NCBI RefSeq assembly: GCF_004118155.1
Contig: NZ_SAIQ01000001.1
Location: 1,302,001 to 1,366,000, forward strand
DNA: 64,000 nt
Origin: Edaphocola flava
Lineage (GTDB): Bacteria; Bacteroidota; Bacteroidia; Chitinophagales; Chitinophagaceae
Reading direction: 5' to 3'
The position numbers and the translations under genes were made by a program. Below are positions 1,118 to 17,684 of this stretch, piece by piece; position 1 is the first letter of the stretch, and each line of letters opens with the position of its first letter. Below the pieces are notes generated by a model, which saw nothing but the letters and a program-made list of their open reading frames with translations, was not told the origin of the DNA and did no database searches.

Positions 1118-2749
1118 TTAATCTGGCTTATTACCGTCCAGGAAAGTATTGATGGTGCTGATGTTTCCATTGCCACGCTCATCTACACGATAAGAAGATA
1201 AGAATGGTTTAGAGGATTCATCAATCGTCTCGTCTGTATTGCTGTTGCGGCGCATATACGCAGGTACATTCTCAATTTCCTCAGCATTATTGCCATGAAA
1301 GTTGAAGCTCATTCTTCTCAGGCGTTCTGCTCTTTCTTCCAGTATTTTCTTTTGCTCTTCGAAACGGTTGCGCTCTTCCATCTCATCAGGAGTCAGGTAG
1401 CGATCACCCATTTTCACACGGTTGTCAGCTGTAGGCTGCGCCGGTTGCGGCTGATATTGCGGCTGCGGAGCAGGAATCTCCTGGTTGCTTACTGTAGTAA
1501 TGGCCTGTGGTACATAGTCTACAGATTCTTCCGCCATTTTATTCGGCAGTTCCAGTTCAAAAGTATGAATCTGTTGTTCCGGTGCCGGTGGTGCAGCAGG
1601 CATATCCTCCTGTACCAGGCGCGGAGCCATAGGATCAACTGCCGGAGCAGGAGGCGCTACAGGAGCTGGTTCCGGGGCAACGGTCGCTACCGGGCTTGGT
1701 TCCGGTTGCAGGTTCATGATTACTTTTTCAGGCTCAGCTGCTTTTTGTTGCTTGGCAAGCTGGGCCATATTATCTTTAATTTCATTCTGGTGAAATCCGG
1801 TTGCAATAATGGTTACAGCGATCTCATCTCCCAGGCTTGGGTCATGACCCATACCTAAGATAATATCACAGTTATTACCAGCCTGATCCTGAACATATCC
1901 CTGGATGATATCCAGCTCGTCCAGTGTGTGCTCATGCTCACCTTGAGAAGAAGTTACATTCAGCAGGATCCATTTAGCTCCGGAGATGTCATCATCATTC
2001 AACAGAGGAGAGTTTAATGCTTCGGTTACCGCAGTATAAGCACGGTTTTCACCGCTTGCCTGTGCACTACCCAGAATGGCTACACCACCATTTTTCATAA
2101 CGGTTTGCACATCGTTAAAGTCAAGGTTTACACGACCGTCTACAGTGATCAGGTCCGTAATACACTTTGCAGCAGTAGCCAGGATATTATCCGCTTTTGC
2201 AAAGGCCTGAGTAAACGGCAGGTTGCCGAACTGCTGGCGCAGCTTGTCATTAGAGATGATCAGGATAGTGTCCACATGTTCTCTCATCGAAGCGATACCG
2301 TTCTGAGCCTGGTTCAGGCGCTTACGACCCTCGTAAGTGAAAGGCGTTGTCACGATACCTACGGTAAGGATACCCAGGTCACGACAAGTCTTTGCAATTA
2401 CAGGAGCCCCACCAGTACCAGTACCACCACCCATGCCGGCAGTAATAAATGCCATGCGCGTATTTACACTCAGGATTTTAGAGATCTCATCTATAGACTC
2501 TTCACCTGCTTGCTTGCCGATTTCAGGATTTGCACCTGCACCAAGTCCCTGTGTCAGGTGTGGCCCCAACTGGATCTTGTTTGGAATCGGGCTTTGCGCC
2601 AATGCCTGTGAGTCGGTATTACATACGATAAAATCTACGCCTTCTATTCCAAGAGTGTACATGGAATTCACCGCATTTCCGCCGCCTCCGCCTACACCAA
2701 TCACCTTGATGATGGAGGACTGATTTTTTGGAATTTCAAAATGTATCAT
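1118..2749 (-). CDS. ftsZ: Cell division protein FtsZ
   Basis: Tubulin-like GTPase that polymerises into the Z-ring at midcell. The GTP-binding signature GGGTGTG is at residues 107-113 and the synergy (T7) loop NLDFND at 208-213, so both halves of the intersubunit GTPase site are intact. The globular domain ends near residue 335. A Pro/Ala/Gln-rich disordered linker of about 180 residues follows, then a conserved-looking C-terminal peptide ending in TFLDGNKPD, the probable docking site for FtsA. At 543 aa it is long for FtsZ because of the linker. It is the last gene of the dcw cluster, 53 bp after ftsA. Confidence 0.98.
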   Translation of the reverse strand: MIHFEIPKNQSSIIKVIGVGGGGGNAVNSMYTLGIEGVDFIVCNTDSQALAQSPIPNKIQLGPHLTQGLGAGANPEIGKQAGEESIDEISKILSVNTRMAFITAGMGGGTGTGGAPVIAKTCRDLGILTVGIVTTPFTYEGRKRLNQAQNGIASMREHVDTILIISNDKLRQQFGNLPFTQAFAKADNILATAAKCITDLITVDGRVNLDFNDVQTVMKNGGVAILGSAQASGENRAYTAVTEALNSPLLNDDDISGAKWILLNVTSSQGEHEHTLDELDIIQGYVQDQAGNNCDIILGMGHDPSLGDEIAVTIIATGFHQNEIKDNMAQLAKQQKAAEPEKVIMNLQPEPSPVATVAPEPAPVAPPAPAVDPMAPRLVQEDMPAAPPAPEQQIHTFELELPNKMAEESVDYVPQAITTVSNQEIPAPQPQYQPQPAQPTADNRVKMGDRYLTPDEMEERNRFEEQKKILEERAERLRRMSFNFHGNNAEEIENVPAYMRRNSNTDETIDESSKPFLSSYRVDERGNGNISTINTFLDGNKPD

Positions 2750-2802
2750 AATAGATTTTTTTAATGGGGGTTAAGTAAAGTTGCTCTTTATACTACGATG
2801 GG

Positions 2803-4260
2803 TTAATTTAATTGTTGATCTTCATTTTCACTAAACAGCTCTTTGATGCTGTTTTTCAGCGTTCCGAAAATAGAAGCAACGCGTTGCGATACTTTTATTC
2901 CAGGGTTTTCTTTAGCTTCTTTAGGCTCTTGCAGCAGATCATCTTCTGCCTCAAATGCTTCTTCTGAAACAATATTGCTTGCAGCTTGTCTGGCTACAGG
3001 GTCCTGTGGCACCGGTGCGACTGGTGCTTCTGGTTGTACGGGCAGTTCAGTATTCTTCTGTCTGATCACGTGCGTAGTACTGTTGCTCTTCTCCAGATCC
3101 AGGTATCCTTTCAGGATAAGGCCGATACAGGTTGAGTACATAGGGTTATTCAATACCTCATCATAACCGCCGGACAGGTGTTCGGTAGGATAACCAATAC
3201 GGGTATTCAGACCGGTTTTGAACTCAGTCAGTTGTTTCAGGTGTTTCAGGCTGCTACCACCACCAGTCAGGATAATACCGCCATGCAGTTTCTTATCCAG
3301 ATCGTGTTGCTTCAGGTGATATACAACATATTCCAGGATCTCTTCCATTCTTGCCTGGATAATGTTAGACAAGGTTTTGGTAGAAAGATTTCTTGCAGGG
3401 AGTCCTTTCAGGCCAGGAATAGAAATATACTGGTTGCCGCTTGCTTCTTCAGCAATAGCAGAACCGAATTGTATTTTCAGTTGCTCGGCCTGTGCCTTCA
3501 GTACGCCCAGCCCGTTTTTAATATCATTCGTGATATTGGTACCGGCAAAAGGGATTACTGCAGTATGTTGCAGAATACCATCTACAAACACCGCCATATC
3601 CGTAGTACCACCACCGATATCCACAATTGCTACACCCGCTTCCAGGTCATCATCAGCCAGTACAGCCGATGCTGATGCCAGTGGTTGCAGTACCAGATCT
3701 TTAGTATACAGATCTGCGCTTTCTACGCAGCGCTGTATATTTTTGATCGCCGTTTTATCACCGGTAATGATATGGAAGTTGGCACCAAATTTAGTACCGT
3801 TCATACCGATTACGGAGCGCTCCGGGATATTGGTAATATTGTCTACAGAGAATTCTGTAGGAATAATATCAATAACCTCATCGCCTGCAGGGATATGTGT
3901 CTTGCGCTGGTCGCTCATCAGCATTTCAATCTCTTCTTTAGTGATAATCTGTTCAGAAGAGGTACGTACCCTGTCACCGCGTGAAGGGATACTTTTGATA
4001 TGCTGACCTGCGATGCCTACATAAACATTATGTATATCCAGGTTAGGATTATTTTCATGCAGGTTATCAATTGCTTTCTTAATCGATGTGATACACTGAT
4101 CCAGGTTCAGCACTACACCGTGACTCACGCCGTTTGACTCTGCTCTGCCGAATCCTATAATCTCGATTTTCCCAAAGTCGTTCTTTCTGCCTGCAATCGC
4201 TACGACTTTGGTGGTACCAATGTCCAGGCCTACAATGATGGGGTTCTCATTCTTATTCAT
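2803..4260 (-). CDS. ftsA: Cell division protein FtsA
   Basis: Actin-like ATPase that anchors FtsZ filaments to the inner membrane and passes signals to the divisome. The phosphate-1 loop GLDIGTTK lies near residue 11, the phosphate-2 loop DIGGGTTD near 216 and an adenosine motif LTGGGSS near 334. The inserted 1C (SHS2) domain lies between the first two. After an acidic, Pro-rich linker the protein ends in an amphipathic stretch (VASIFGTLKNSIKELF), the usual membrane-targeting helix of FtsA. At 485 aa it is somewhat longer than the E. coli protein because of the linker. Confidence 0.97.
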   Translation of the reverse strand: MNKNENPIIVGLDIGTTKVVAIAGRKNDFGKIEIIGFGRAESNGVSHGVVLNLDQCITSIKKAIDNLHENNPNLDIHNVYVGIAGQHIKSIPSRGDRVRTSSEQIITKEEIEMLMSDQRKTHIPAGDEVIDIIPTEFSVDNITNIPERSVIGMNGTKFGANFHIITGDKTAIKNIQRCVESADLYTKDLVLQPLASASAVLADDDLEAGVAIVDIGGGTTDMAVFVDGILQHTAVIPFAGTNITNDIKNGLGVLKAQAEQLKIQFGSAIAEEASGNQYISIPGLKGLPARNLSTKTLSNIIQARMEEILEYVVYHLKQHDLDKKLHGGIILTGGGSSLKHLKQLTEFKTGLNTRIGYPTEHLSGGYDEVLNNPMYSTCIGLILKGYLDLEKSNSTTHVIRQKNTELPVQPEAPVAPVPQDPVARQAASNIVSEEAFEAEDDLLQEPKEAKENPGIKVSQRVASIFGTLKNSIKELFSENEDQQLN

Positions 4261-4285
4261 ATCACAAAGATTTTTTTATGCTAAA

Positions 4286-5350
4286 CTATTTTTTATTATT
4301 AGGTTTATTTTTTTCGTTGGTATACTCGTACTTAGGTTTCGATGTGGTCGTCTTCGCACTTGGTTTAGTCAAGGGTTTCACTGCTTTTGGCTTTTCCGGA
4401 GCAGATTTCTTTACTGCTGCAGTTACAACTGGTTTCGCTGCTGCTTTTACAGGTGCAGGTTTGACCGGTTGCGGTTTTACGACAGGCTTTACTGCATCCG
4501 TGTGTTCTGCAGGTGCAGGAACCGGTTCTGTAATAGCTACCGAATTGGTATCTTTAGGTGGTACCCATCCAAATGTAGGACTGGCGACAACCTGGTTTCT
4601 GTAACGTATATCCAGGACTTCATATTTATTCCATCCTATCTTATTCGATACTTCACGGTAAAAAGAATACAGGTTCTTCAGTTTATCCGCTACACGTGTA
4701 GTATCTCCTATGATAATCTTCTGTTTGCCTATAGTAGTGTATGCATTGAAGTGATGTTCATTCACCACATCCAGTTGTGTAATCTGGCTGTTCCAGAAGC
4801 TGTCTGCTTTCAGTACCTCACTCATGTACACGATTTTCTTTTTCATTCCGGCATAAATACTGTCATTGGCAGCATGCGGCACATTGGTGAAAACCGTTAC
4901 CGGATATGCATATCGTTCGCTCAGTGGCATTTCAAAGCCCGCAGAATCAATATAGAAACTACGCCCTTCGCGGGTAAATAATCTCGCTACCGGTAAACGT
5001 TGTGTTACTTCTATATTCAGCTTACTGTTATTGTCCACATATACTTCTGCGCTTTTTACCCAAGGGTTCTGTTCTGCCAGTTCTTCTATATGGTTCAGGT
5101 CCAGGTCGGCAATGCTCTTGTTGAGAATATTGATATTCGTATTCGTTACAAAAAGCTTTTCTACATCCTTTTCCAGTAAAAAGTTTTCTTCTTCGCCCTG
5201 GTTCTGGAGGGTGACCTTAACCCCTTCAATCTTACGCTCCGCCTGCTTCTTCGTCGCGGCAAACAATACGCATGAGAAAGTAATCAACACCAGTGATCCC
5301 ACGATGAAGCGTTTTACTTTTCTTGCCGATATTTTTTTACCTGTTGACAT
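4286..5350 (-). CDS. ftsQ: Cell division protein FtsQ (POTRA-domain divisome protein)
   Basis: Single-pass inner-membrane protein with a short basic cytoplasmic N-terminus, one TM segment at about residues 14-31, a periplasmic POTRA domain at about 35-110 and a beta domain after it. FtsQ bridges early and late divisome proteins. Sequence is weakly conserved, so the call rests on topology and on its position between murC and ftsA. The C-terminal 100 residues are a Lys/Pro/Ala-rich low-complexity tail not found in proteobacterial FtsQ; it could bind the wall or simply be disordered. Confidence 0.88.
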   Translation of the reverse strand: MSTGKKISARKVKRFIVGSLVLITFSCVLFAATKKQAERKIEGVKVTLQNQGEEENFLLEKDVEKLFVTNTNINILNKSIADLDLNHIEELAEQNPWVKSAEVYVDNNSKLNIEVTQRLPVARLFTREGRSFYIDSAGFEMPLSERYAYPVTVFTNVPHAANDSIYAGMKKKIVYMSEVLKADSFWNSQITQLDVVNEHHFNAYTTIGKQKIIIGDTTRVADKLKNLYSFYREVSNKIGWNKYEVLDIRYRNQVVASPTFGWVPPKDTNSVAITEPVPAPAEHTDAVKPVVKPQPVKPAPVKAAAKPVVTAAVKKSAPEKPKAVKPLTKPSAKTTTSKPKYEYTNEKNKPNNKK

Positions 5351-5362
5351 GTATGCTTATAA

Positions 5363-6721
5363 CTATTTCTCTGATAATATTTTTCCTATAGGGGCCACCA
5401 GCTTATCAATATCACCTGCACCGGCTGTTATAAACAAATCCAGCGGAGCATTAGTTACATAAGACATTAATCCTTCCTTGCTCAGTATAGTTACATTAGG
5501 ATTGCCCATTTTACTTTTAATCATTGCTGCATCAACACCCTCGATCGGTAATTCTCTCGCAGGATAAATATCCAGCAGGATAATCTCATCAGCCATATCC
5601 AGTGCATGCGCAAATTCTGTAGCGAAATCGCGTGTACGGGTGAATAGGTGCGGTTGGAACGCAATGACGATTCTGCGTTTAGAGAACAGCGTTTTCGCAC
5701 TTTTAATCAATGCGGCCAGCTCTTCGGGGTGATGCGCGTAATCGTCTATATAAACAATCTTATCATTCTTAACGATATATTCAAAACGACGTTTAACTCC
5801 TTTGAAATTAGCTACTGCACTTTTAATCGCTTCATCCTCAATTTCCAGTTGCTTGGCAACCGCTATAGCCGCAATACAGTTCTCTACATTATGCATACCA
5901 CCAATATTCAGATGCACATCAGTCATGAAAATGCCATTTCCTTTTACATCGAAAATGTAGCTGCCGTTTTTCATCTGGATGTTATCTGCATAGGCATCTG
6001 CACCAGTATTCTGTAAGCTATAGCTTTTTTTATGCGCCCCTTTTAACTGAGCACCTTGTTTCAAACCATGTTTTTTGATCAGGGTGCCGTTCGGTTTAAT
6101 GTTGGCAGTATATTGTATATACGCTTCCTGCACCGCTTCCGGGGTACCGTAGATGTCCAGGTGATCAGCATCCATAGCCGTCAGTACTGCTACATCCGGT
6201 TTCAGCTTCAGGAAGCTTCGGTCATATTCGTCTGCTTCTATCACTGCTACTGCATTGTCGGAGCTCCAGTAATTGGTGTTATAATTTACTGAAATGCCAC
6301 CCAAAAATGCATTACAGCCATAACCGCTATCTCTCAGTATGTGACCAATCATAGTGCTGATCGTCGTTTTGCCATGGGTACCGGCAACAGTGATGGCAAA
6401 CATAGATTCTGTAATCCATTGCAATGCATCAGAGCGCTTGTACACAGGGTAATTATTAGCTCGGTACCAATTCAGGATTACATTATCCTGTGGTATGGCC
6501 GGTGTATAGATCACGACATCTACCTCTTTCTTCAGTTCTGTCTCTGAATCAGTATAAGTCACACCAATCTCTTCCTGCACCAGCTGACGGGTAAGATCGG
6601 TTTCTGTTTTATCATAACCGTTTACCTCCACGCCTCTTTGCTTAAAGAAGCGGGCCAGGGCACTCATGCCTATACCACCTATACCTACAAAATATACTTT
6701 CTTTATTGAGTCGATGTTCAT
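5363..6721 (-). CDS. murC: UDP-N-acetylmuramate--L-alanine ligase MurC
   Basis: Cytoplasmic Mur ligase that adds L-Ala to UDP-MurNAc with ATP, the first step of stem-peptide assembly. The N-terminal nucleotide-sugar fold starts with GIGGIGMS at residues 13-20, the ATP loop GTHGKTT is at 114-120 and the characteristic DDYAHHP motif is in the second half. Length (452 aa) is normal. It begins 4 bp after murG and ends 12 bp before ftsQ, consistent with translational coupling. Confidence 0.97.
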   Translation of the reverse strand: MNIDSIKKVYFVGIGGIGMSALARFFKQRGVEVNGYDKTETDLTRQLVQEEIGVTYTDSETELKKEVDVVIYTPAIPQDNVILNWYRANNYPVYKRSDALQWITESMFAITVAGTHGKTTISTMIGHILRDSGYGCNAFLGGISVNYNTNYWSSDNAVAVIEADEYDRSFLKLKPDVAVLTAMDADHLDIYGTPEAVQEAYIQYTANIKPNGTLIKKHGLKQGAQLKGAHKKSYSLQNTGADAYADNIQMKNGSYIFDVKGNGIFMTDVHLNIGGMHNVENCIAAIAVAKQLEIEDEAIKSAVANFKGVKRRFEYIVKNDKIVYIDDYAHHPEELAALIKSAKTLFSKRRIVIAFQPHLFTRTRDFATEFAHALDMADEIILLDIYPARELPIEGVDAAMIKSKMGNPNVTILSKEGLMSYVTNAPLDLFITAGAGDIDKLVAPIGKILSEK

Positions 6722-6725
6722 GATC

Positions 6726-7820
6726 TTAGTTTTTTTGATTTACTATATCTATCACAATGCGGGCAATGCGTTCGTCAGCATCTTTGATCGCTTCCTCTTT
6801 CAGGTTGCGGTGCATCTGCTGCTGCAGTGCTTCGTTGTTTAATAGCTGTAACAAGGTTCCTGCCAGTTGCAGCTGGGCTTCATCGTTTTTAATCATCAGG
6901 GCTGCATCTTTCCGGGTCAGGGAAAGGGCATTGCTGGTCTGGTGGTCCTCAGCCGCAAACGGATAAGGAACAAAGATTACCGGTTTGGCCACAATACAGA
7001 GTTCAGCAATAGCTAAGGCACCTGCACGGGATATCACCATATCTGCTGCTGCGTATGCCTGTTCCATCTGGCGGATGAAAGCATGTACCTTCACCTGCGG
7101 ATAATCGGCTGCTGCATTTACTGCTTCCTGATAGAATGGCTCTCCTGTCTGCCAGATGATCTGCAAGCCTGCGCTGGTCAGTAATTCCAGGTTGGCAGCA
7201 ATCGCTTCATTAATCGCTTTCGCCCCCAGGCTACCACCTACAATCAGCAATGTCTTTTGATGCTCGTTCAGTTCGAAGAAGCGTTTCGCCTCAACCGGAT
7301 CTATATTGGCTTGTGCAATGCTGGCACGCACCGGGTTTCCGGTCTTTATGATGGCATCCTTCGGAAAGAACTGTTCCATCTGGTCATAAGCCACGCAAAT
7401 GGCCTTTGCCTTTTTACCTAATATCTTATTGCTCTTCCCGGCAAAGGAGTTTTGCTCCTGGATCAGTGTCGGAATACCTGCTGCCTGTGCTGCATTCAGC
7501 ATAGGAAAACTGGCATAGCCACCAACACCAATCACGATGTCCGGGTTGAATGTTTTAATCAGTTCATTGGCCTTGCGGCGGCTCTTCCATAGCTTGAACG
7601 GAAGGGATAAGTTTTTGAGCCAGTTGCTTCTGTTGAGGCCGGCAATATCCAGCCCTACAATTTTGTATCCGGCCTGCGGCACCTTCTCCATCTCCATCTT
7701 GCCCTTTGCGCCTACAAACAAAACTTCCGTATCGGGACGTAAGCGCTGCAAGGCATTAGCAATTGCTACTGCCGGAAAGATATGTCCTCCTGTGCCTCCA
7801 CCTGCAATGATTACTTTCAT
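6726..7820 (-). CDS. murG: UDP-GlcNAc:lipid I N-acetylglucosaminyltransferase MurG
   Basis: Peripheral membrane GT28 glycosyltransferase that converts lipid I to lipid II on the cytoplasmic face. The N-terminal glycine loop GGGTGGHIFPA (residues 7-17) binds the lipid-linked acceptor. The second glycine loop GGSLGA and the UDP-GlcNAc-binding SRAGA motif follow in the C-terminal domain. Length (364 aa) is normal. It is separated by 3 bp from ftsW, so flippase/polymerase-side and lipid II synthesis genes are coupled. Confidence 0.97.
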   Translation of the reverse strand: MKVIIAGGGTGGHIFPAVAIANALQRLRPDTEVLFVGAKGKMEMEKVPQAGYKIVGLDIAGLNRSNWLKNLSLPFKLWKSRRKANELIKTFNPDIVIGVGGYASFPMLNAAQAAGIPTLIQEQNSFAGKSNKILGKKAKAICVAYDQMEQFFPKDAIIKTGNPVRASIAQANIDPVEAKRFFELNEHQKTLLIVGGSLGAKAINEAIAANLELLTSAGLQIIWQTGEPFYQEAVNAAADYPQVKVHAFIRQMEQAYAAADMVISRAGALAIAELCIVAKPVIFVPYPFAAEDHQTSNALSLTRKDAALMIKNDEAQLQLAGTLLQLLNNEALQQQMHRNLKEEAIKDADERIARIVIDIVNQKN

Positions 7821-7823
7821 ACG

Positions 7824-9026
7824 TTAATTGTTTTGAGCCGCAGCCAGGGCTTCTTTATCCCGCTGCTCTTTTTCAATTTGTTTTACCAATTGTTGTTTAC
7901 CTTCCATCTCATCTACGTAGCGGCTTACGCTCAGTATTACGCCTACTGCCATGGCCGTGAATACGATGGAAGATCCCCCTTTACTCACAAAGGGTAAGGT
8001 CTGACCGGTTACCGGCACCAGGTGCACGGCTACCGCCATATTGATCATGGCCTGGAAAACCAGGGTAAAACTCAATCCTATAGATAGAAATGCGCCGAAT
8101 GCATAGGGGCATCTCCTGAATATATTAATACTTCGCCAGAGGAACAGCAGATAGCAGAACATCAATGCACTTGCACCTATGAGGCCGTATTCTTCGATCA
8201 CAATGGCAAATACGAAGTCGGAATAAGGGTGCGGCAGGAAGTTCTTTGCATAACTGTTACCTGGTCCGCGACCGGTTAATCTTCCGTTCGCAATAGCAAT
8301 ATTTGCCTGATCTGTCTGATAGGTATCATCAGCATCGGCATTCTTGCCCATAAATACTTCTATACGCTTCTGCCACGTACCGCCACGACCTTTACCGGTA
8401 AGCTTGGATATGGCAAATATGCATAATACCAGTCCCAATCCGGCGACAATCAGCAGCAGGATGAACTTCATGGGTATACGGCCTATGAAGAACATAAAGC
8501 AGCAGGTAGCACCTAATAGCAATGCTGTAGACAGGTTTGCCGGAGCAATCAGTCCGCAGATAATCAGTACCGGTAACAGAACCGGGAAGAATCCTTTCCA
8601 GAAATTGCCGATTACTTTTTGCTTCAGGCTCAACTGGCGGGCCAGGAAGGTGAAAATGGCCAGCTTTGCTAAGTCTGATGTCTGTATCGTAACACCTACA
8701 AAAGGAATGGCGATCCAGCGTGACCCACTGTTCAGTTCTGTACCGAAGAACAGGGTATAGAGCAGTAAGGGTATACTCGCCAGGAACAGGTATACCGACC
8801 ATTTCATAAATCGGGTGTACTTGATCCGGTGAAAGATATATACCGTGGCTAAACCCAGTACTAAGTAAAATATCTGTGACAGTAAGAATTTGAACGGAGT
8901 TGTATTATGCTCCAGTGCCAGCCTGTCGGTGGTACTGTAGATCAAAAGCAGGCTGAACAGGGATAGAATGACTACCACTGACCAGATTACTTTATCTCCT
9001 TTTACTTGCTGCAACAACGCTTTCAT
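7824..9026 (-). CDS. ftsW: SEDS-family septal peptidoglycan polymerase FtsW
   Basis: Polytopic SEDS protein (about ten TM segments in 400 aa) that polymerises glycan strands at the septum together with its cognate class B PBP, here FtsI of the same cluster. Visible family features are the GRGPGNS loop near the centre and the C-terminal TGQTLPFVSKGGSS region. Its place between murD and murG argues for FtsW rather than RodA. The cytoplasmic C-terminus is short and charged. Confidence 0.95.
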   Translation of the reverse strand: MKALLQQVKGDKVIWSVVVILSLFSLLLIYSTTDRLALEHNTTPFKFLLSQIFYLVLGLATVYIFHRIKYTRFMKWSVYLFLASIPLLLYTLFFGTELNSGSRWIAIPFVGVTIQTSDLAKLAIFTFLARQLSLKQKVIGNFWKGFFPVLLPVLIICGLIAPANLSTALLLGATCCFMFFIGRIPMKFILLLIVAGLGLVLCIFAISKLTGKGRGGTWQKRIEVFMGKNADADDTYQTDQANIAIANGRLTGRGPGNSYAKNFLPHPYSDFVFAIVIEEYGLIGASALMFCYLLFLWRSINIFRRCPYAFGAFLSIGLSFTLVFQAMINMAVAVHLVPVTGQTLPFVSKGGSSIVFTAMAVGVILSVSRYVDEMEGKQQLVKQIEKEQRDKEALAAAQNN

Positions 9027-9060
9027 TCCTTACGGGCTTTATTTAATTTCTTATATTTTT

Positions 9061-10410
9061 TTACAAACCTTTTACGGCTTCTTTGAATTGATCTCCTCTG
9101 TCTTCATAATTTTTGAAGAGGTCAAAGCTGGCACAACCCGGAGACAGCAATACGATATCTCCTTTATCGGCCAGGGCATAGCTTGCATTTACAGCGTCTT
9201 TTGCACTTGCAGTATCTACTATTGTAGCGACCACACCATCAAATGCTTTATGAATAGGACTATTGTCAATACCCATACAAACAATTGCTTTCACTTTTTC
9301 CTGTACCAACTCCATAATTTCATTGTAGTTGTTACCCTTGTCCTGTCCGCCCAATATCAGTACCACCGGCTTTTTCATGCTTTCCAGTGCAAACCATACA
9401 GAGTTCAGGTTAGTACCTTTGCTATCATTGATAAACTCAACACCACGCACAGTAGCTACATATTCCAGACGATGCTCCAGCCCGTCAAAGGTTTCAAAAC
9501 AATCTCTGATCTTTTCTTTACGAATACCTGCTGCTCTTGCAGAAATACCTGCGGCCATAGAGTTGAATTGATTGTGTTTACCTTTTAATGCCAGATCATG
9601 CACAGTAGTCTTCATATCATCTCCCTCCCATTTAATGTGCATTTCATCATTATTCATATATGCTCCGTCCTGATTGTTAAGTAGGTGATCGCTCATTGTG
9701 ATATAAATTGTTCGTGGGTTAATAGTATTTTGTTCTAAGTATTTTATAGTTGCTTCGTCTTCCTGGTTCAGTATGAGGATATCATTTTCTTGCTGGTTTT
9801 CTGCTATCCTGAACTTGGCTGCGGCATACTTGTCGAAATTGTATTCGTAGCGGTCCAGGTGGTCTGGTGTTATATTCAGAATCATGGCTATATCCGGTCT
9901 GAAGGTCTTAATATCATCCAGCTGGAAACTGCTGATCTCTGCTACATACCATTCGGTAGGCTGCTCTGCAATCTGCTTGGCAAAGCTGTAACCGATATTA
10001 CCGACCATTGATACATCCAGTTTGTTTTGCTTCAGGATGTAATAGACCAGGCTCGTTGTGGTGCTTTTTCCGTTACTGCCTGTTATAGCAATGATCTTAC
10101 TGTCTCCCTTATGGCGGTAGGCCCATTCAATCTCACTGATCAGCTCTATACCTGCGGTCCTGATGGCTTTTATGATCGGTGCCTTTTCCGGTATGCCGGG
10201 ACTCTTGACGATCAGGTCAGCATTCAGAATCAGATCCTGTGTGTGCCCTCCGGATTCGTAAGCGATGTTATGTGCCTCCAGTTCGGCCCGGTAGCTTTCC
10301 TTGATCTGGCCAAAATCCGAGACGAACACATCGTACCCTTCTTTCTTAGCCAGGATTGCTGCGCCGTTTCCGCTCTCGCCTGCTCCTAATACAACAATAC
10401 GTTTCATCAT
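9061..10410 (-). CDS. murD: UDP-MurNAc-L-alanine--D-glutamate ligase MurD
   Basis: Mur ligase that adds D-Glu to UDP-MurNAc-L-Ala. An N-terminal dinucleotide-type fold (VVLGAGESGNG) binds the UDP substrate, the ATP loop GSNGKST is at residues 111-117, and NITPDHLDRY marks the central domain. Two adjacent ATG codons exist (10410 and 10407); either could be the start. Length (449 aa) is normal. It follows mraY by 9 bp and precedes ftsW by 34 bp. Confidence 0.96.
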   Translation of the reverse strand: MMKRIVVLGAGESGNGAAILAKKEGYDVFVSDFGQIKESYRAELEAHNIAYESGGHTQDLILNADLIVKSPGIPEKAPIIKAIRTAGIELISEIEWAYRHKGDSKIIAITGSNGKSTTTSLVYYILKQNKLDVSMVGNIGYSFAKQIAEQPTEWYVAEISSFQLDDIKTFRPDIAMILNITPDHLDRYEYNFDKYAAAKFRIAENQQENDILILNQEDEATIKYLEQNTINPRTIYITMSDHLLNNQDGAYMNNDEMHIKWEGDDMKTTVHDLALKGKHNQFNSMAAGISARAAGIRKEKIRDCFETFDGLEHRLEYVATVRGVEFINDSKGTNLNSVWFALESMKKPVVLILGGQDKGNNYNEIMELVQEKVKAIVCMGIDNSPIHKAFDGVVATIVDTASAKDAVNASYALADKGDIVLLSPGCASFDLFKNYEDRGDQFKEAVKGL

Positions 10411-10419
10411 TCTTTATAC

Positions 10420-11703
10420 TTATTGCAGTTTCATCGAAACGATACTCAGTACAGCCAGTAAAATACCAACGATCCAGAAGCGTGTTACGATTTTAGTTTC
10501 ATGATATCCCAGTTTCTGGTAGTGATGGTGCAATGGCGCCATTTTAAATAAGCGGTTCTCCTTTGCATATTCAAGACCATTCTTTCTTTTCTGATATTTA
10601 AAGTATCCTGTTTGCAGCAGCACTGAGAGGTTTTCTACCAGGAAAATGCCACAGAAAATAGGAATCAGTAATTCTTTTCTGATAATGATGGCCATACAGG
10701 CAATGATACCACCGAGTGCCAGGCTACCGGTATCACCCATAAATACCTGTGCCGGGTAGGTGTTGTACCAGAGGAAGCCAATACAGGCTCCCACAAAGGC
10801 ACCCATGAAAATGGATAACTCACCCAGGTTAGGAATATGCATGATGTTCAGATATTCGGCAAATACATAGTTGCCGGAGAGGTAGGCGAAAATACCTACG
10901 CAAACCCCTATGATTGCCGATACCCCTGTGGCCAGACCATCCAGACCATCGGTCATATTCGCGCCATTACTTACTGCAATGATGATGAAGGTGACAAATA
11001 TGATATATAATAACGGTGTGGTCCAGTTGATATTTTTATCTCCGAAAACCGAAGCGATCTTAGCAAAGCTGATCTCGTGGTTTTTATTAAACGGAACGCT
11101 GGTTACAGCCGATTGCACTTTCACATATTTTCTTACCCTGCCGTCATTTTCCTTGCGGAAGGTAGGCTCACCAATGATCTTCTCTGTATTGTTGTATAAT
11201 GTAGGTCTGCCATCCACTACTTCGCGGGTAGTCACTACGTGGCTGTTGAAGTACATCATTGACCCTATAATTATACCCAGACCTAATTGCCCGATTACTT
11301 TAAACTTACCTTTCAGGCCTTCTTTATTCTTTTTGAATACCTTAATGTAATCATCCAGGAACCCGATAATGCCAAGCCATACCGTACTGATCAGCATCAT
11401 AATGATATATACATTGCTGATGCGTGCAAACAGCAGTGTTGGTATCAGTATACCGGCAATGATGACCAGACCGCCCATTGTAGGCGTACCTTTCTTGGAT
11501 GTTTGTCCATCCAGGCCCAGCTCACGGATGGTTTCACCGATTTGCTTCTTTTGCAGAAACTTGATCACCTTCTTCCCGTAGATCATCGTAATGACCAATG
11601 ACAGGAGAATGGCCATCGATGTACGGAAGGTAATGAACTGAAAGACACCTGCGCCGCTCAGTCCGAATACTTCCCTTAGGTATGTGAATAAGTTGTAAAG
11701 CAT
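10420..11703 (-). CDS. mraY: Phospho-MurNAc-pentapeptide transferase MraY
   Basis: Integral membrane enzyme that transfers phospho-MurNAc-pentapeptide to undecaprenyl phosphate, giving lipid I. Conserved Asp motifs are visible: DDYIK near residue 117, [12 protein letters not shown] at about 249-260 and [12 protein letters not shown] further on. At 427 aa it is about 65 residues longer than E. coli MraY. The extra sequence lies at about residues 155-225, a polar, charged stretch between TM segments, probably an external loop. Confidence 0.97.
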
Positions 11704-11715
11704 TTTTCTATATAA

Positions 11716-13179
11716 TTATTTTTCCAATAGTTTAAACATTTCGAGGAGTACCTCACGGTCATCAAAATGATGGCGTACTCCTTTGATCTCCTGGTAGGTT
11801 TCATGACCTTTGCCGGCCACGAGTATTACATCATCTGCATGGGCCATACTTACTGCCGTTTTGATTGCGGCTTTCCGGTCACTGATGCGTAATGCTTTGC
11901 GCATCATACCTGGTGTAAGACCCGCTTCCATATCATCCAGTATCGCTTCAGGGTCTTCACTTCTCGGGTTGTCGGAAGTCAGGATCACCTTTGAGCTCAG
12001 TTCGCAGGCTACCTGTGCCATTTCTGGTCGTTTCAGTTTATCTCTGTCTCCGCCACAGCCAATCACGGTAATGATATTGGCCTGCTGACCGAATTGTTTT
12101 ATCGTAGACAATACATTCTGTAAAGCATCCGGCGTATGGGCGTAATCTATAATACCCAGTATTTTTTCGGTAGCAGAATGGTAGGTTTCAAACCTGCCTG
12201 CTGCTCCCTGCATATTGCTCAGGGCTGTCAGTACATCAATCTTATCCTGTCCGCATAATACTGCTGCACCGTATACGGCCAGCAGGTTATAGGCATTGAA
12301 CAGGCCCGACATACGGAAATGAACATCCTGTCCGTCCACATTCATCAGGAGGCCGGTCAGGTTATTTTCAAATACCTTGCCTTTGAAATCGCAGGGTACT
12401 CTTAAACCATATGCTTTCTTTGCCGCCTTAGTATTTTGCAACATCACCATACCGCGTTTATCGTCGATATTGGTCAGGGCAAATGTGCCTTTCGGCAAGT
12501 GGTCAAAGAACTGTTTCTTAACCCTTATATACTCATCAAACGTCTTATGATAATCGAGGTGATCATGCGTAATATTGGTAAAGATGCCTCCGCGGAAAGT
12601 GATACCTGTAATACGGTGCTGATGCACTGCATGGGAGCTCACTTCCATAAAAGCATACGTACAGCCGGCATCCACCATCTGGCGGAACAATGCCTGCAGA
12701 CTTACCGGATCGGGAGTAGTATGCGTAGAAGGAATAACATTTTCCCTTATCCTGTTCTCCACTGTAGATACCAATCCTGAAGGCTCATCCAGTTGATTAA
12801 ATAATTTATATAACAGTGTCGCAACACTGGTCTTTCCGTTCGTTCCCGTTACGCCCACCACCTGCAATTTGCGGGTAGGGTGGCCGTAAAATGCCGATGC
12901 CATCAATCCAATAACCGGGGCTACCTCATCCACCTGTATATAACATACTTCCAGATTTAAAATTTCCGGGAGCTCTTTACATACTATAGCTATTGCACCG
13001 GCTTCGATGACAGCTGGTATATACTGATGTCCGTCTGTTACCGTACCCTTCTGTGCAAAGAAAAGCATACCAGGAGCGGCCTTACGGGAATCAATCGTAA
13101 GACCATCTATAACAAGATCAGTACGGCCATGTATAGCCCGTACCGGAATGTCTTGTATGATTGCTGCTATGTTCTTCAC
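11716..13179 (-). CDS. murE: UDP-MurNAc-tripeptide synthetase MurE
   Basis: Mur ligase that adds the third residue of the stem peptide. The ATP loop TGTNGKTS is at residues 111-118. A DNPR motif near residue 400 is the signature of enzymes that add meso-diaminopimelate rather than lysine, so the wall is predicted to be mDAP-type. A dapA gene at the other end of the window fits this. Length (487 aa) is normal. It starts 1 bp after the ftsI stop, indicating tight coupling. Confidence 0.97.
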   Translation of the reverse strand: MKNIAAIIQDIPVRAIHGRTDLVIDGLTIDSRKAAPGMLFFAQKGTVTDGHQYIPAVIEAGAIAIVCKELPEILNLEVCYIQVDEVAPVIGLMASAFYGHPTRKLQVVGVTGTNGKTSVATLLYKLFNQLDEPSGLVSTVENRIRENVIPSTHTTPDPVSLQALFRQMVDAGCTYAFMEVSSHAVHQHRITGITFRGGIFTNITHDHLDYHKTFDEYIRVKKQFFDHLPKGTFALTNIDDKRGMVMLQNTKAAKKAYGLRVPCDFKGKVFENNLTGLLMNVDGQDVHFRMSGLFNAYNLLAVYGAAVLCGQDKIDVLTALSNMQGAAGRFETYHSATEKILGIIDYAHTPDALQNVLSTIKQFGQQANIITVIGCGGDRDKLKRPEMAQVACELSSKVILTSDNPRSEDPEAILDDMEAGLTPGMMRKALRISDRKAAIKTAVSMAHADDVILVAGKGHETYQEIKGVRHHFDDREVLLEMFKLLEK

Positions 13180-13180
13180 T

Positions 13181-15295
13181 TTAGCTGAGTTCTAGGTTAA
13201 TGGTTTGTCCTTTTTTATAATTACTGCCCGCAGGTATAGACTGCCGGTTTACGCTTCCTGCGCCACTGATGTGTACTTTAAGGCCGGCATTCTCTAACAG
13301 GTAGAGCGCCTCTTTAATACCCATTCCCACTACATCCGGTACTATATTTGTCTTCACTTCTTTCGAAGCAATTTTTAATTTATGTTGTGCATCATTCTGC
13401 AGGAACGAGAGCATTGCATTGCTGTTTTCCTGGTAAGCAGTATAACCCAGCATCTTCAGCAGGTACTGCAATTGGCCCGGAGGTGCTGCTTTTGCAACCA
13501 GCATTTTATCCTTGCCCAGTGAGTCAGCATCCACTTTCCAGCCACCGATCTTGGTGGTATAAAGCTTATCTGCAATGGCTTTAAATACCGGTACACCCAG
13601 TGCTGCACCATAATAAACACCATGTGGTTTAGAGCGGATCACCACTGCTATTGTATAGCGGGGCTTTTCTGCCGGGAAATATCCTACAAAAGAACCTTGC
13701 TTTACACCATCGGCATAGCTATAAAAAACATCACCGATCTTATCTGCTACCTGTGCGGTACCCGTTTTGCCTGCTGCGGTATAGAACGGAGATTGCGCTG
13801 CCTTGGCAGTACCCTCTCTCACCACGGCGCGGGTTACTTGCTGTAACTGCTTTATGGTAGATTCTTTACCTATTTTTTCAATGAGCACCTTTGGTTCGAT
13901 CTGACGGATCACTTTCCCATCTTCTTTAACCGCACTTACGAGGTAAGGTTGCATCATCTTACCATTATTGGCTACTGCATTGTACACCATACAAGTATGT
14001 AGTGGTGTGATCATGCTTTCATAACCGTAACCGATCCAGGGCAGAGAAGTGATTTTATTCCAGCTTTTGCTTTCCGGTGTTTTGATCAGCGGTTTGCGCT
14101 CGCCGGCCAGATCTAAATTCGTTTTTTGGTTTAAGCCCAGATGTTGCAAATGCTTGATATACTTCATCGGGTTATCATGATAATATTTGTTGACCAGGGA
14201 GGCAAAAGCCACATTGGACGACTGTGCAAAGGCTTTTTCTACCGTGATAGAACCTAATCCGCCATGATCGTCACGTACCGTCTGGGTACCGAAGCGCATT
14301 TGCCCACCGTTACAGTTTACCATAGTATTGGCATTGACATAACCGTCTTCCAGTAAGGCATAGAGCGACATCAGTTTGAATACCGATCCCGGTTCAGAAG
14401 GAATCATGGCATAGTTAAAGTCTTCCCAGTATTCGCCATTCTTCTGGCGACCCAGGTTAGCAATAGCCCTGATCTTTCCGGTCTCCACCTCCATCACAAT
14501 AGCCGTACCCTGCAGACACTCATACTGAGCCATAATATCATGCAGTGCATGTTCTGTTACTTCCTGTATGTCTATATCAATGGTTGATACAATATCATGT
14601 CCTTCTACCGCCTCAATCTCAGAACCCACAAGCGGAACCCACTGACCACCTACTTTGTGAATGATGCGGGTGCCTGTTCTGCCCGACAGGTCTGTATCGT
14701 AGCTCTTTTCCAGACCAATGATCTGAGCATTCTCTCTCCACAAACCAATGGTACGGTAAGCCAGCATACCATAAGGGTTCATTCGCTTCATCTGCGGTTC
14801 CGGCATAAAACCACCTTTATTTTTTGGCTTGCGCAATAAAGGCAGGTTGCGGATCAGCTGATAGTCATAATAGGCCACTTTGTTTTTAAGTGTCCAGTAT
14901 CGGCTTTTCCGGCGGAAACCCTCTTTCATTCTCTGTTTCAGCGAAGCGGCAGTCTCATCTTTGAGGATGGTAGCCAGTGCATCGCACAGTGTATCAACAT
15001 TATTGTAGAAGGTGTCTTTATTGATCACCGACAGGTCCATCTTCAGATCAAACTTCGGAATGGTTGCCGACAGGATCTTTCCTTCTTCTGTATATATATT
15101 ACCGCGGTCAGGATATAAGGTTTCAATATCAGAAAAAGAGCGGTTGGCCTGCGCCCTTAGTCGCTCTCCGTCATTGGCCTGAGTCATGCCCGCTTTAATG
15201 ACAATGGCAGCTCCCAATAGCACAATAGCACCAAAAGACAGGTTAACCCGTCTGCTGATGTCTCTTTTTACACTTGATTTTTGTTGTGCTGCCAA
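13181..15295 (-). CDS. ftsI: Septal class B penicillin-binding protein FtsI/PBP3 with PASTA domain
   Basis: Divisome transpeptidase that cross-links septal peptidoglycan and partners with FtsW. A single TM anchor lies at about residues 18-36, a pedestal/dimerisation region at about 55-230, and the transpeptidase domain carries SVFK (304-307, catalytic Ser), SSN (359-361) and KTG (510-512). The last 65 residues form a PASTA domain, starting at IVPDVVGM. A PASTA tail on FtsI is typical of Bacteroidota and Gram-positives but absent from E. coli. The gene starts 4 bp after ftsL. Confidence 0.96.
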   Translation of the reverse strand: MAAQQKSSVKRDISRRVNLSFGAIVLLGAAIVIKAGMTQANDGERLRAQANRSFSDIETLYPDRGNIYTEEGKILSATIPKFDLKMDLSVINKDTFYNNVDTLCDALATILKDETAASLKQRMKEGFRRKSRYWTLKNKVAYYDYQLIRNLPLLRKPKNKGGFMPEPQMKRMNPYGMLAYRTIGLWRENAQIIGLEKSYDTDLSGRTGTRIIHKVGGQWVPLVGSEIEAVEGHDIVSTIDIDIQEVTEHALHDIMAQYECLQGTAIVMEVETGKIRAIANLGRQKNGEYWEDFNYAMIPSEPGSVFKLMSLYALLEDGYVNANTMVNCNGGQMRFGTQTVRDDHGGLGSITVEKAFAQSSNVAFASLVNKYYHDNPMKYIKHLQHLGLNQKTNLDLAGERKPLIKTPESKSWNKITSLPWIGYGYESMITPLHTCMVYNAVANNGKMMQPYLVSAVKEDGKVIRQIEPKVLIEKIGKESTIKQLQQVTRAVVREGTAKAAQSPFYTAAGKTGTAQVADKIGDVFYSYADGVKQGSFVGYFPAEKPRYTIAVVIRSKPHGVYYGAALGVPVFKAIADKLYTTKIGGWKVDADSLGKDKMLVAKAAPPGQLQYLLKMLGYTAYQENSNAMLSFLQNDAQHKLKIASKEVKTNIVPDVVGMGIKEALYLLENAGLKVHISGAGSVNRQSIPAGSNYKKGQTINLELS

Positions 15296-15299
15296 TGTT

Positions 15300-15635
15300 T
15301 TACTTTTTTTCTACTGCTTTTATTTCAAAGGCCGGTTTGGATAAAGGAGCAATACCCAGGGATTTAGCCTGTTCGCTGATCTGTCTTTCCGAAGTGTAAT
15401 AGATCAGGCTGGCCTGTGCGTCCTTATAGCGCCAACGAACCTCTTTTAATTCTTTTTTCTTTTTTTCGATTTCTCTTGCCAGCGACAGTCCTTTATTGCT
15501 GTTAGAGATATACATTACTGCAAGTAAAGCCAGGAAGATCAGGTAGGGCACATTGAGCACCACCCCCCGGTAGGAGATGTTATCAAAGCGCTCTTTGATC
15601 GCATTTATTCTGTCTCTGACATTTGCTTCAGTCAT
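15300..15635 (-). CDS. ftsL: FtsL-like divisome protein
   Basis: Small bitopic protein (111 aa). It has a 25-residue cytoplasmic tail, one TM segment at about 29-45 and a periplasmic Lys/Glu-rich coiled coil at about 50-85 (EIEKKKKELKEVRW). FtsL with FtsB and FtsQ activates FtsWI. Sequence identity is low across the family; the call rests on size, topology and position between rsmH and ftsI, each 4 bp away. Confidence 0.85.
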   Translation of the reverse strand: MTEANVRDRINAIKERFDNISYRGVVLNVPYLIFLALLAVMYISNSNKGLSLAREIEKKKKELKEVRWRYKDAQASLIYYTSERQISEQAKSLGIAPLSKPAFEIKAVEKK

Positions 15636-15639
15636 ATTT

Positions 15640-16548
15640 TTATTTATCCATGTACTCCGCTATACGCAGGCGGGCACTTCTTGATCGGTTATTGTGTTCC
15701 AGTTCCTCTTCTGATGGCAGTACATCCTTCAGTACTTTGAAAGGATTCTCCATCGTCTTGCGGCCGAAAGCATCAGTAGTCACTTCGCTTAAGGTGCCGT
15801 TTTTCATCATCTTTTTAGTCAGGCGGTCTTCCAGTGAATGGAAGGTGATGATCGCCAGGCGGCCACCAGGTTTCAGGCAGTCTTTGGTCTGCTCCAGAAA
15901 CTGGCTCAATACCTCCATCTCCTGGTTTACCTCGATACGTAAAGCCTGGAATACCTGTGCCAGGTATCGGTTAGGCTTACCTTTGATGCAGGAGTCGATG
16001 GCATTTTTAAAACCCTCAATCGTTTTAATATCGCTGCTTTTTCTCTGCTCTACAATTGTTTTGGCCAGCGTACGTGCATTTCTGACTTCCCCGTATACTT
16101 CAAACATCTTATGCAGCTTTGCCTCACTGTAGTCACGGATAATGTCTGCAGCTGTTGTGTCCAGACGGTCATCCATACGCATATCCAGCGGGGCATCGAA
16201 ACGGATCGAAAAACCGCGGTCTGCTGTATCGAACTGGAAGGAGCTCACCCCGAGATCGGCCAGTATACCATCTACTTTAGAGGCCTGGTGTAACCTCAGG
16301 AAACGTTTCATATACTGAAAGTTTTCCTTTACCAGTATAAAGCGTTTATCATCTATTGCATTTTTCCATGCATCTTTATCATGGTCAAAAGCAATAAGTC
16401 TTCCGTTTTTGCCCAGTCGTTCCAGGATGGCCCGGCTGTGGCCGCCCCCGCCGAACGTACAATCGACGTAAACGCCATTGGGCTTGATGTCCAAGGCGTC
16501 AATACTCTCCCGGAGCAATACGGAAATATGATGATAAGCCTGCTCCAT
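15640..16548 (-). CDS. rsmH: 16S rRNA (cytosine-1402-N4)-methyltransferase RsmH
   Basis: SAM-dependent methyltransferase (MraW family) that modifies C1402 in the ribosomal P site. The SAM-binding loop DCTFGGGGHS is near residue 29, LADLGVSSFQFD follows, and the C-terminal segment ITFHSLEDR is the family signature. Length 302 aa is normal. As in most bacteria it is second in the dcw cluster, 7 bp after mraZ. Confidence 0.97.
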   Translation of the reverse strand: MEQAYHHISVLLRESIDALDIKPNGVYVDCTFGGGGHSRAILERLGKNGRLIAFDHDKDAWKNAIDDKRFILVKENFQYMKRFLRLHQASKVDGILADLGVSSFQFDTADRGFSIRFDAPLDMRMDDRLDTTAADIIRDYSEAKLHKMFEVYGEVRNARTLAKTIVEQRKSSDIKTIEGFKNAIDSCIKGKPNRYLAQVFQALRIEVNQEMEVLSQFLEQTKDCLKPGGRLAIITFHSLEDRLTKKMMKNGTLSEVTTDAFGRKTMENPFKVLKDVLPSEEELEHNNRSRSARLRIAEYMDK

Positions 16549-16555
16549 ATAAATA

Positions 16556-16996
16556 TTAATTAAATAATTCGTTTGCCAGATCCTCTTCTTCCTGTTGCTG
16601 CGCGGCGATATAAGCTTCTTTACTTGCCTTATCCCAGACTTCTACTTTATTGCCTTGTGCCCAGAAGATGATTTCTTTATTCAGTCCCGCATATTCCTGT
16701 AATGGTTTAGGGATCAGTATTCTGCCTGCGCTGTCAACTTCCAGAAGGTTAATGCCGTCCAGAAACAGGCGCTTGAATTTTTGTACTTTAGGATTGAAGG
16801 CACTCATTTCGTCCAGTTGCTGGCTTAATTTCTCCCATTCGCTCAAAACATACAAAGTCAGGCAGTTGTCTAATCCACGTTTTACGACATAGGTATGCAC
16901 GTCCGATTCCGGCAATTGCTTGCGGAAGTCAGCAGGGACGAGTAAGCGTCCTTTTGCGTCCATAGAAACCTTATATTCGCCGTAAACTGAGGCCAT
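16556..16996 (-). CDS. mraZ: Transcriptional regulator MraZ
   Basis: DNA-binding protein built of two tandem AbrB-like SpoVT/MraZ domains. The first carries the DAKGRLLVPADFR motif (residues 14-26) and the second DSAGRILIPKPL. In E. coli and mollicutes MraZ binds direct repeats upstream of its own gene and represses or activates the dcw operon. It is the first gene of the leftward cluster here. The repeats at 17134-17169 just upstream are candidate targets as well as DnaA boxes. Length 146 aa is typical. Confidence 0.96.
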   Translation of the reverse strand: MASVYGEYKVSMDAKGRLLVPADFRKQLPESDVHTYVVKRGLDNCLTLYVLSEWEKLSQQLDEMSAFNPKVQKFKRLFLDGINLLEVDSAGRILIPKPLQEYAGLNKEIIFWAQGNKVEVWDKASKEAYIAAQQQEEEDLANELFN

Positions 16997-17070
16997 TCAG
17001 GGTAATTTGAGAATTATGCTACAAAATAACACAAATTCCCACAATTTACCACTATACAGTTGTGTCTATT

Positions 17071-17169
17071 TTATCCACAATTTGGCATTGTTTAACATAT
17101 TGCAAATCAGCTAATTAACATTGAATATGAAAATGTGGAAAACACAAATGTGGATAATATTGTGGATAA
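17071..17169. promoter_or_regulatory. DnaA-box cluster in the mraZ/globin intergenic region
   Basis: The 9-mer TTATCCACA, the consensus DnaA box, occurs perfectly at 17071-17079 (+), 17149-17157 (-) and 17161-17169 (-). A one-mismatch copy, TTTTCCACA, is at 17134-17142 (-). About 0.5 perfect copies are expected by chance in 64 kb on both strands, so three in 99 bp is not random. The interval is AT-rich and lies in a 295-bp divergent region: the dcw cluster runs left and three genes run right. It may be a DnaA-controlled dcw promoter or part of a replication origin. The three minus-strand copies also read as TGTGGAWAA direct repeats, so MraZ binding is an alternative. Confidence 0.7.
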
Positions 17170-17291
17170 AATAGGGCGTTTTTAACACTGCTTTTACAAA
17201 CGGTGGTATTTTGTGTCTGTAGCTTGGTGGTAAATGGTGTTTTGCGGCCTCTGCAGGAATAAATCCGTACCTTTATAGGCAAAAAAATAGC

Positions 17292-17684
17292 ATGAAACCT
17301 GATATAGCAGTAGTAGAAGATATATGTTTGTTTGTAGATGAATTTTATGCCCGCGTAGGAAAGAATGAGCTGATCGGGCCTATTTTTAATGAAAAGCTGG
17401 AAGGCCATTGGGATGCGCATTTGCAGAAAATGTACCGTTTCTGGCAAACCATACTGTTACATGAGCATACCTACAGCGGCAGCCCTTTTCTGCACCATAT
17501 GAAACTGCCTATATATAAAGAGCATTTTAGTATCTGGCTCGATTTATTTCATCAAACAATTGACACGCATTTTGAAGGTCCTGTGGCAGAAGAAGCCAAG
17601 AGCAGGGCAGGCAAAATGGCGCTTATGTTTGAAGCAAAACTCGACTACCTGAGGAGCAATCCGGATACGATACCCCTCGTATAA
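17292..17684 (+). CDS. Group III truncated hemoglobin
   Basis: 130-residue truncated globin. The length, the start pattern (DIxxxEDIxxFVDxFYxRV) and the SPFLHHMKLP segment with a later HFSIWLDLF helix fit group III (Ctb/trHbP-like) globins, which bind haem and O2/NO; the His in HFSIW is the likely proximal ligand. It is the first gene rightward of the DnaA-box region and sits 15 bp before the ComF-type gene, so the two may be cotranscribed. A possible -7 element TACCTTTA lies at 17268-17275. The physiological ligand cannot be told from sequence. Confidence 0.9.
   Translation: MKPDIAVVEDICLFVDEFYARVGKNELIGPIFNEKLEGHWDAHLQKMYRFWQTILLHEHTYSGSPFLHHMKLPIYKEHFSIWLDLFHQTIDTHFEGPVAEEAKSRAGKMALMFEAKLDYLRSNPDTIPLV

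Follow-up and report, generated by a model that had tools for sequence, protein, structure and literature searches.

A predicted DnaA/MraZ composite operator, conserved across Chitinophagaceae, at the head of the dcw operon

Three perfect DnaA boxes crowd into the spacer upstream of mraZ in this Edaphocola flava genome, and they raise the question of what reads them and to what effect. A sequence-only reading of the locus had offered three answers: a DnaA-controlled promoter of the dcw (division and cell wall) operon, part of oriC, or binding sites of MraZ. The DNA analysed here is a 64-kb stretch (the window; G000:C1:1302001-1366000) from a draft genome of 15 contigs totalling 3.54 Mb, whose closest named relatives are Edaphocola aurantiacus (MraZ 99% identity) and Taibaiella, in the family Chitinophagaceae of the Bacteroidota. 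Its relevant features, in window coordinates, are the following.

1118-16548, minus strand: remainder of the dcw operon, comprising rsmH (mraW), ftsL, ftsI, murE, mraY, murD, ftsW, murG, murC, ftsQ, ftsA and ftsZ
16556-16996, minus strand: mraZ, the operon's first gene (PF02381, E 7.8e-31)
16997-17291: intergenic spacer between mraZ (minus) and the divergent globin-like gene (plus)
17022-17029, minus strand: inferred promoter-like -7 element, TTATTTTG, near the Bacteroidota TAnnTTTG
17029-17052, minus strand: predicted MraZ operator, GTGG/GTGG/GTGT in 10-bp steps
17042-17044, minus strand: possible -33 TTG
17066-17081 and 17159-17174: left arm (around the proximal box) and right arm of a perfect 16-bp inverted repeat
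17071-17079: proximal DnaA box, exact match, TTATCCACA on the plus strand and TGTGGATAA on the minus strand toward mraZ
17134-17142, minus strand: distal DnaA box 1, TTTTCCACA, one mismatch, a variant of the canonical TTWTCCACA
17149-17157, minus strand: distal DnaA box 2, exact TTATCCACA
17161-17169, minus strand: distal DnaA box 3, exact TTATCCACA
17292-17684, plus strand: truncated-globin-like gene, the divergent neighbour (PF01152)

The exact copies of TTATCCACA at 17071 (+), 17149 (-) and 17161 (-) lie where the sequence-only reading had placed them, as does the one-mismatch copy at 17134 (-), and the minus-strand copies follow one another at the claimed steps of 15 and 12 bp. The window contains no exact copy beyond these three; the chance expectation, which had been put at about 0.5 per window, comes to ~0.45 when computed from the 25 exact copies in the genome. 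Since a reversed control word also occurs 25 times, this whole-genome count reveals no enrichment, and the overall frequency of the box is ordinary; only the local cluster is unusual. That cluster is the tightest among the 25 exact copies, and any triple within 90 bp arises in 1/200,000 random placements of 25 boxes. Leftward from the spacer run the 13 genes of the dcw operon, mraZ first and ftsZ last, and to its right the globin-like gene, a ComF-like phosphoribosyltransferase gene and an aromatic amino acid lyase gene precede the next minus-strand gene, which bears out the original count of 13 and three. Two further sequence features of the locus are a C-terminal PASTA domain in the operon's FtsI (13181-15295, minus strand) and, on the globin side of the spacer, two copies of GGTGGTAWWTKGTGT 24 bp apart (17202-17240, plus strand) that resemble the MraZ repeats in the opposite direction.

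An alignment of relatives' mraZ upstream regions, which the sequence-only reading had proposed as a check, finds the boxes conserved in nearly all leaders of the family. We aligned leaders from 71 family genomes on mraZ and dropped one near-identical leader, leaving 70 of common ancestry, so that the counts given here are not independent of one another. Counted without a prior motif, the top two 9-mers upstream of -75 were TTATCCACA (40/70) and TTTTCCACA (37/70). Exact TTATCCACA is found in 42 of the 70, as against 0.4 in dinucleotide shuffles, and a copy with up to one mismatch in 69, as against 6.9. Across the 71 loci the density of exact boxes is 2.97/kb within the 280 bp that precede mraZ, as against 0.013/kb in flanking DNA, a 226x difference. 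The proximal site, as TGTGGAWAA, is exact in 63/70 leaders and within one mismatch in 68/70.

Conservation extends from the words to their arrangement. Toward mraZ, the leaders run from one or more distal TTATCCACA-type boxes through an opposite-facing proximal TGTGGAWAA to GTGG repeats that end in TTATTTTG, words of the latter type being present in about 49/70 leaders family-wide. The proximal box starts 54 bp upstream of the promoter-like TTTG in the window, and this same distance is kept in 55 of 68 leaders, with 53 bp in another 10, while the distance from the proximal box to the start codon (ATG) varies from 77 to 97 bp; a fixed distance to TTTG beside a variable one to the start codon places the constraint on the promoter and not on the gene.

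Among the 66 leaders with a proximal box at most one mismatch away from TGTGGATAA, 59 have inverted TTATCCACA-type boxes further upstream; in these 66, 87 boxes face the proximal box and 1 is oriented the opposite way. The facing-to-proximal distances cluster at 78-82, 89-94, 100-103 and 112-116 bp, and are periodic at 11.0-11.2 bp with a circular strength R of 0.64, compared with 0.35 for the 99.9% null over all periods tested, a comparison that overstates confidence because the null treats leaders as independent despite their kinship. The window's own distal distances are 63, 78 and 90 bp, of which the 78 bp of distal box 2 and the 90 bp of distal box 3 fall in the first two of these recurring classes; distal box 1, also in facing orientation, is retained in the same-genus genomes L043 and L044. 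That the distal boxes face the proximal one at steps of the helix suggests that DnaA molecules touch one another through a loop or a short oligomer.

Between these boxes and mraZ lies a second, separate module. The predicted operator repeats at 17049-17052, 17039-17042 and 17029-17032 overlap the core promoter, and nearly all leaders of the family and of the class have 10-bp GTGG repeats at this position. MraZ is described as binding repeats before dcw (Eraso 2014 and Fisunov 2016, as cited in PMC8475190), and the MraZ boxes of E. coli and Mollicutes, in the account given there, are direct repeats upstream of mraZ that the GTGG-type repeats here resemble (PMC8475190). The DnaA boxes are an addition to that known layout.

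A candidate reader of the boxes is encoded in the genome. The domains of its DnaA (490 aa) match DnaA proteins of solved structure, and the box-reading domain IV is conserved and intact, retaining RQIAMYL and FGKRDHTTVIH; the consensus given for DnaA of B. subtilis is TTATNCACA (PMC4447404). Consensus boxes near a putative promoter-like element, whose distance from the start of the proximal box is 54 bp, are thus accompanied by family-wide conservation upstream of mraZ (68/70 within one mismatch) and by the protein expected to bind them. Of the three original options, the DnaA-controlled dcw promoter is therefore the one that conservation across the family strongly supports as a prediction, and we consider it likely that the spacer is a composite DnaA/MraZ operator and promoter driving the 13-gene dcw operon that ends in ftsZ.

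We infer that DnaA occupies these boxes and that the boxes act on dcw transcription. DnaA would bind the proximal TGTGGATAA and the inverted upstream TTATCCACA/TTTTCCACA boxes, whose helical position with respect to the promoter is fixed, and MraZ, bound to the GTGG repeats that overlap the core promoter, would act as a repressor, closing a negative feedback loop. A transcription start a few bases after TTTG would centre the proximal box ~55-60 bp upstream of it. Proteins bound ~55-60 bp upstream of a start often activate, and the position of the box accordingly favours activation as the probable sign of regulation. Bound DnaA would most likely contact RNA polymerase, or form a small oligomer or loop between the distal and proximal boxes. 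Transcription of the dcw operon would then depend on how much DnaA is present or on which nucleotide it carries, and a rise in DnaA activity ahead of initiation could determine how much FtsZ and wall enzyme the cell is supplied with.

Among the alternatives, the one that survives best, although we still judge it improbable, is that the boxes serve mainly as a DnaA sink or reactivation site that lies at dcw by chance and tunes free or ATP-bound DnaA, not dcw itself. The spacer is a cluster of strong boxes away from oriC, it is the genome's tightest exact-box cluster and holds more exact boxes than the oriC candidate described below, and the distal arrays with weaker boxes look like titration arrays. 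In this it is like datA, DARS and the DnaA-box clusters of B. subtilis, all chromosomal clusters of strong DnaA boxes off oriC, for which we know of no fixed promoter distance. A sink, however, could do without a constant 53-54 bp to the promoter, without strict polarity and without 11-bp phasing, nor need it stay at mraZ in nearly every member of the family while the neighbouring gene changes.

That the boxes belong to MraZ, as outlying GTGG copies of its operator, is very unlikely. The idea, raised in the sequence-only reading, draws on the GTGG common to boxes and operator repeats, and on the dominance of GTGG repeats in the leaders of the class's other families. The 10-bp GTGG-type direct repeats next to mraZ are nevertheless those at 17029-17052 and not the TTATCCACA boxes: the operator advances in 10-bp steps, while the proximal-box GTGG lies 26 bp from the first MraZ repeat, out of that register, and the distal copies step by 12 and 15 bp in the opposite orientation. 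The base after GTGG also differs: every conserved proximal box has A there, and most MraZ repeats have G or T. The distal word is an exact DnaA consensus. Register, orientation and base preference together led us to discard MraZ as the reader of the boxes.

Exact boxes in an AT-rich spacer, together with a local skew dip within the window, could also mark part of oriC. GC skew was read along a single contiguous stretch of 400 kb and in scattered samples of 20 kb. Within the contiguous 1.00-1.40 Mb of C1, the cumulative minimum, which the sequence-only reading would have taken as support for oriC had it lain at the spacer, falls near 1.105 Mb, the skew being mostly negative before ~1.1 Mb and mostly positive after. 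The switch at ~1.08-1.105 Mb is thus well apart from the spacer at 1.319 Mb, and a better candidate for the chromosome's main origin-like box array sits at that switch: C1:1082618-1083391, an intergenic region of 72% AT, holds one exact box along with numerous copies at one or two mismatches, 236 kb from the mraZ spacer. We place oriC there, a placement that is well supported and, because the skew is weak and partly sampled, not proven. All five genus genomes match the region at least in part; of the two closest, one does so at 96% identity over the whole query and the other over ~390 bp at 77% plus ~100 bp at 81%, and in two more distant ones only ~70 bp at one end match. The dip inside the window, for its part, fits 13 genes running left against replication. 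With the skew switch and an oriC-like box cluster 236 kb away, the oriC option is refuted for this genome, and we hold it to be highly improbable that the spacer is part of the origin; dnaA, too, is on another contig than the spacer.

The oriC candidate (L005:2618-3391) has an ABC transporter gene on one side and a hydrolase or PHA-synthase-like gene on the other. A second pair of exact boxes, at C1:1067140 and 1067198, was set aside on account of its apparent location within coding sequence. Sampled skew was noisy in two complete relatives, G108 and G118. The record of G108, a one-contig family genome, begins ~1.4 kb from mraZ and has dnaA 1.5 Mb away; its submitters may have taken the mraZ spacer for oriC. 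Software that looks for origins by counting exact DnaA boxes could likewise select this spacer.

Control of the divergent globin-like gene instead of dcw, suggested by the spacer the two share, can be dismissed, since that gene adjoins mraZ in only 5/71 family loci and yet the boxes stay at their fixed distance from the mraZ promoter, to which they most likely belong.

DnaA at division genes has precedents, and the DnaA/MraZ operator predicted here differs from each. In B. subtilis, DnaA occupies the promoter of ftsL (Goranov 2005, reviewed in PMC8203912), a dcw-type division gene, as we predict for mraZ; that case comes from a different phylum, and the review, in the sections available, mentions neither a composite with repeats for MraZ nor a fixed spacing nor conservation throughout a family. 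In Caulobacter, DnaA acts at ftsZ, mipZ and gcrA (Hottes 2005; Fernandez-Fernandez 2011, both reviewed in PMC8203912) and, according to the same summary, serves as an activator linking initiation to ftsZ. Activation in our case is favoured by box position, and the Caulobacter site, as reviewed, is at ftsZ itself, whereas here it stands at the head of an operon ending in ftsZ. DnaA boxes within the dcw cluster are found in E. coli as well, there inside ftsQA and, as that review reports, without effect on ftsZ (PMC8203912), so that DnaA boxes can lie close to division genes and yet not regulate them. We found no literature on DnaA boxes in connection with the dcw cluster or with phylogenetic footprinting in Bacteroidetes, and none on a DnaA/MraZ composite operator or on Bacteroidota DnaA sites at dcw, in a search that was thin on subscription journals; within the portions of the literature it reached, the composite operator does not appear to have been described.

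The significance of the arrangement lies in predicted DnaA sites kept at near base-pair precision across nearly all sampled family genera at the head of an ftsZ-ending operon; owing to that precision, a link between replication and division is directly testable by point mutation in tractable members. The start of chromosome copying and the division of the cell may be controlled by one switch at the dcw promoter. A broader proposition, on which we regard the balance as even, is that DnaA in Chitinophagaceae is dedicated to regulating the whole division and cell-wall operon, by way of an operator that is phased with the helix and that it shares with MraZ; replication initiation would then be wired directly, at the level of transcription, to the supply of FtsZ.

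The arrangement itself is largely confined to Chitinophagaceae. The complete form is present in 1/67 leaders from other families of the class and in 0/20 from the order's other families. In the same 67 leaders, exact TTATCCACA occurs in 6 (0.2 expected), a one-mismatch copy in 34 (5.8 expected) and the proximal TGTGGAWAA in 9 (0.1 expected). A related word, TTWTYAACA, is found in 37/67 leaders of other Bacteroidia (2.6 expected), usually ~11 bp before the first GTGG repeat, and may correspond, across the class, to the proximal box. With such kindred elements in the equivalent place elsewhere in the Bacteroidia, the operator may have had an older form common to the whole class.
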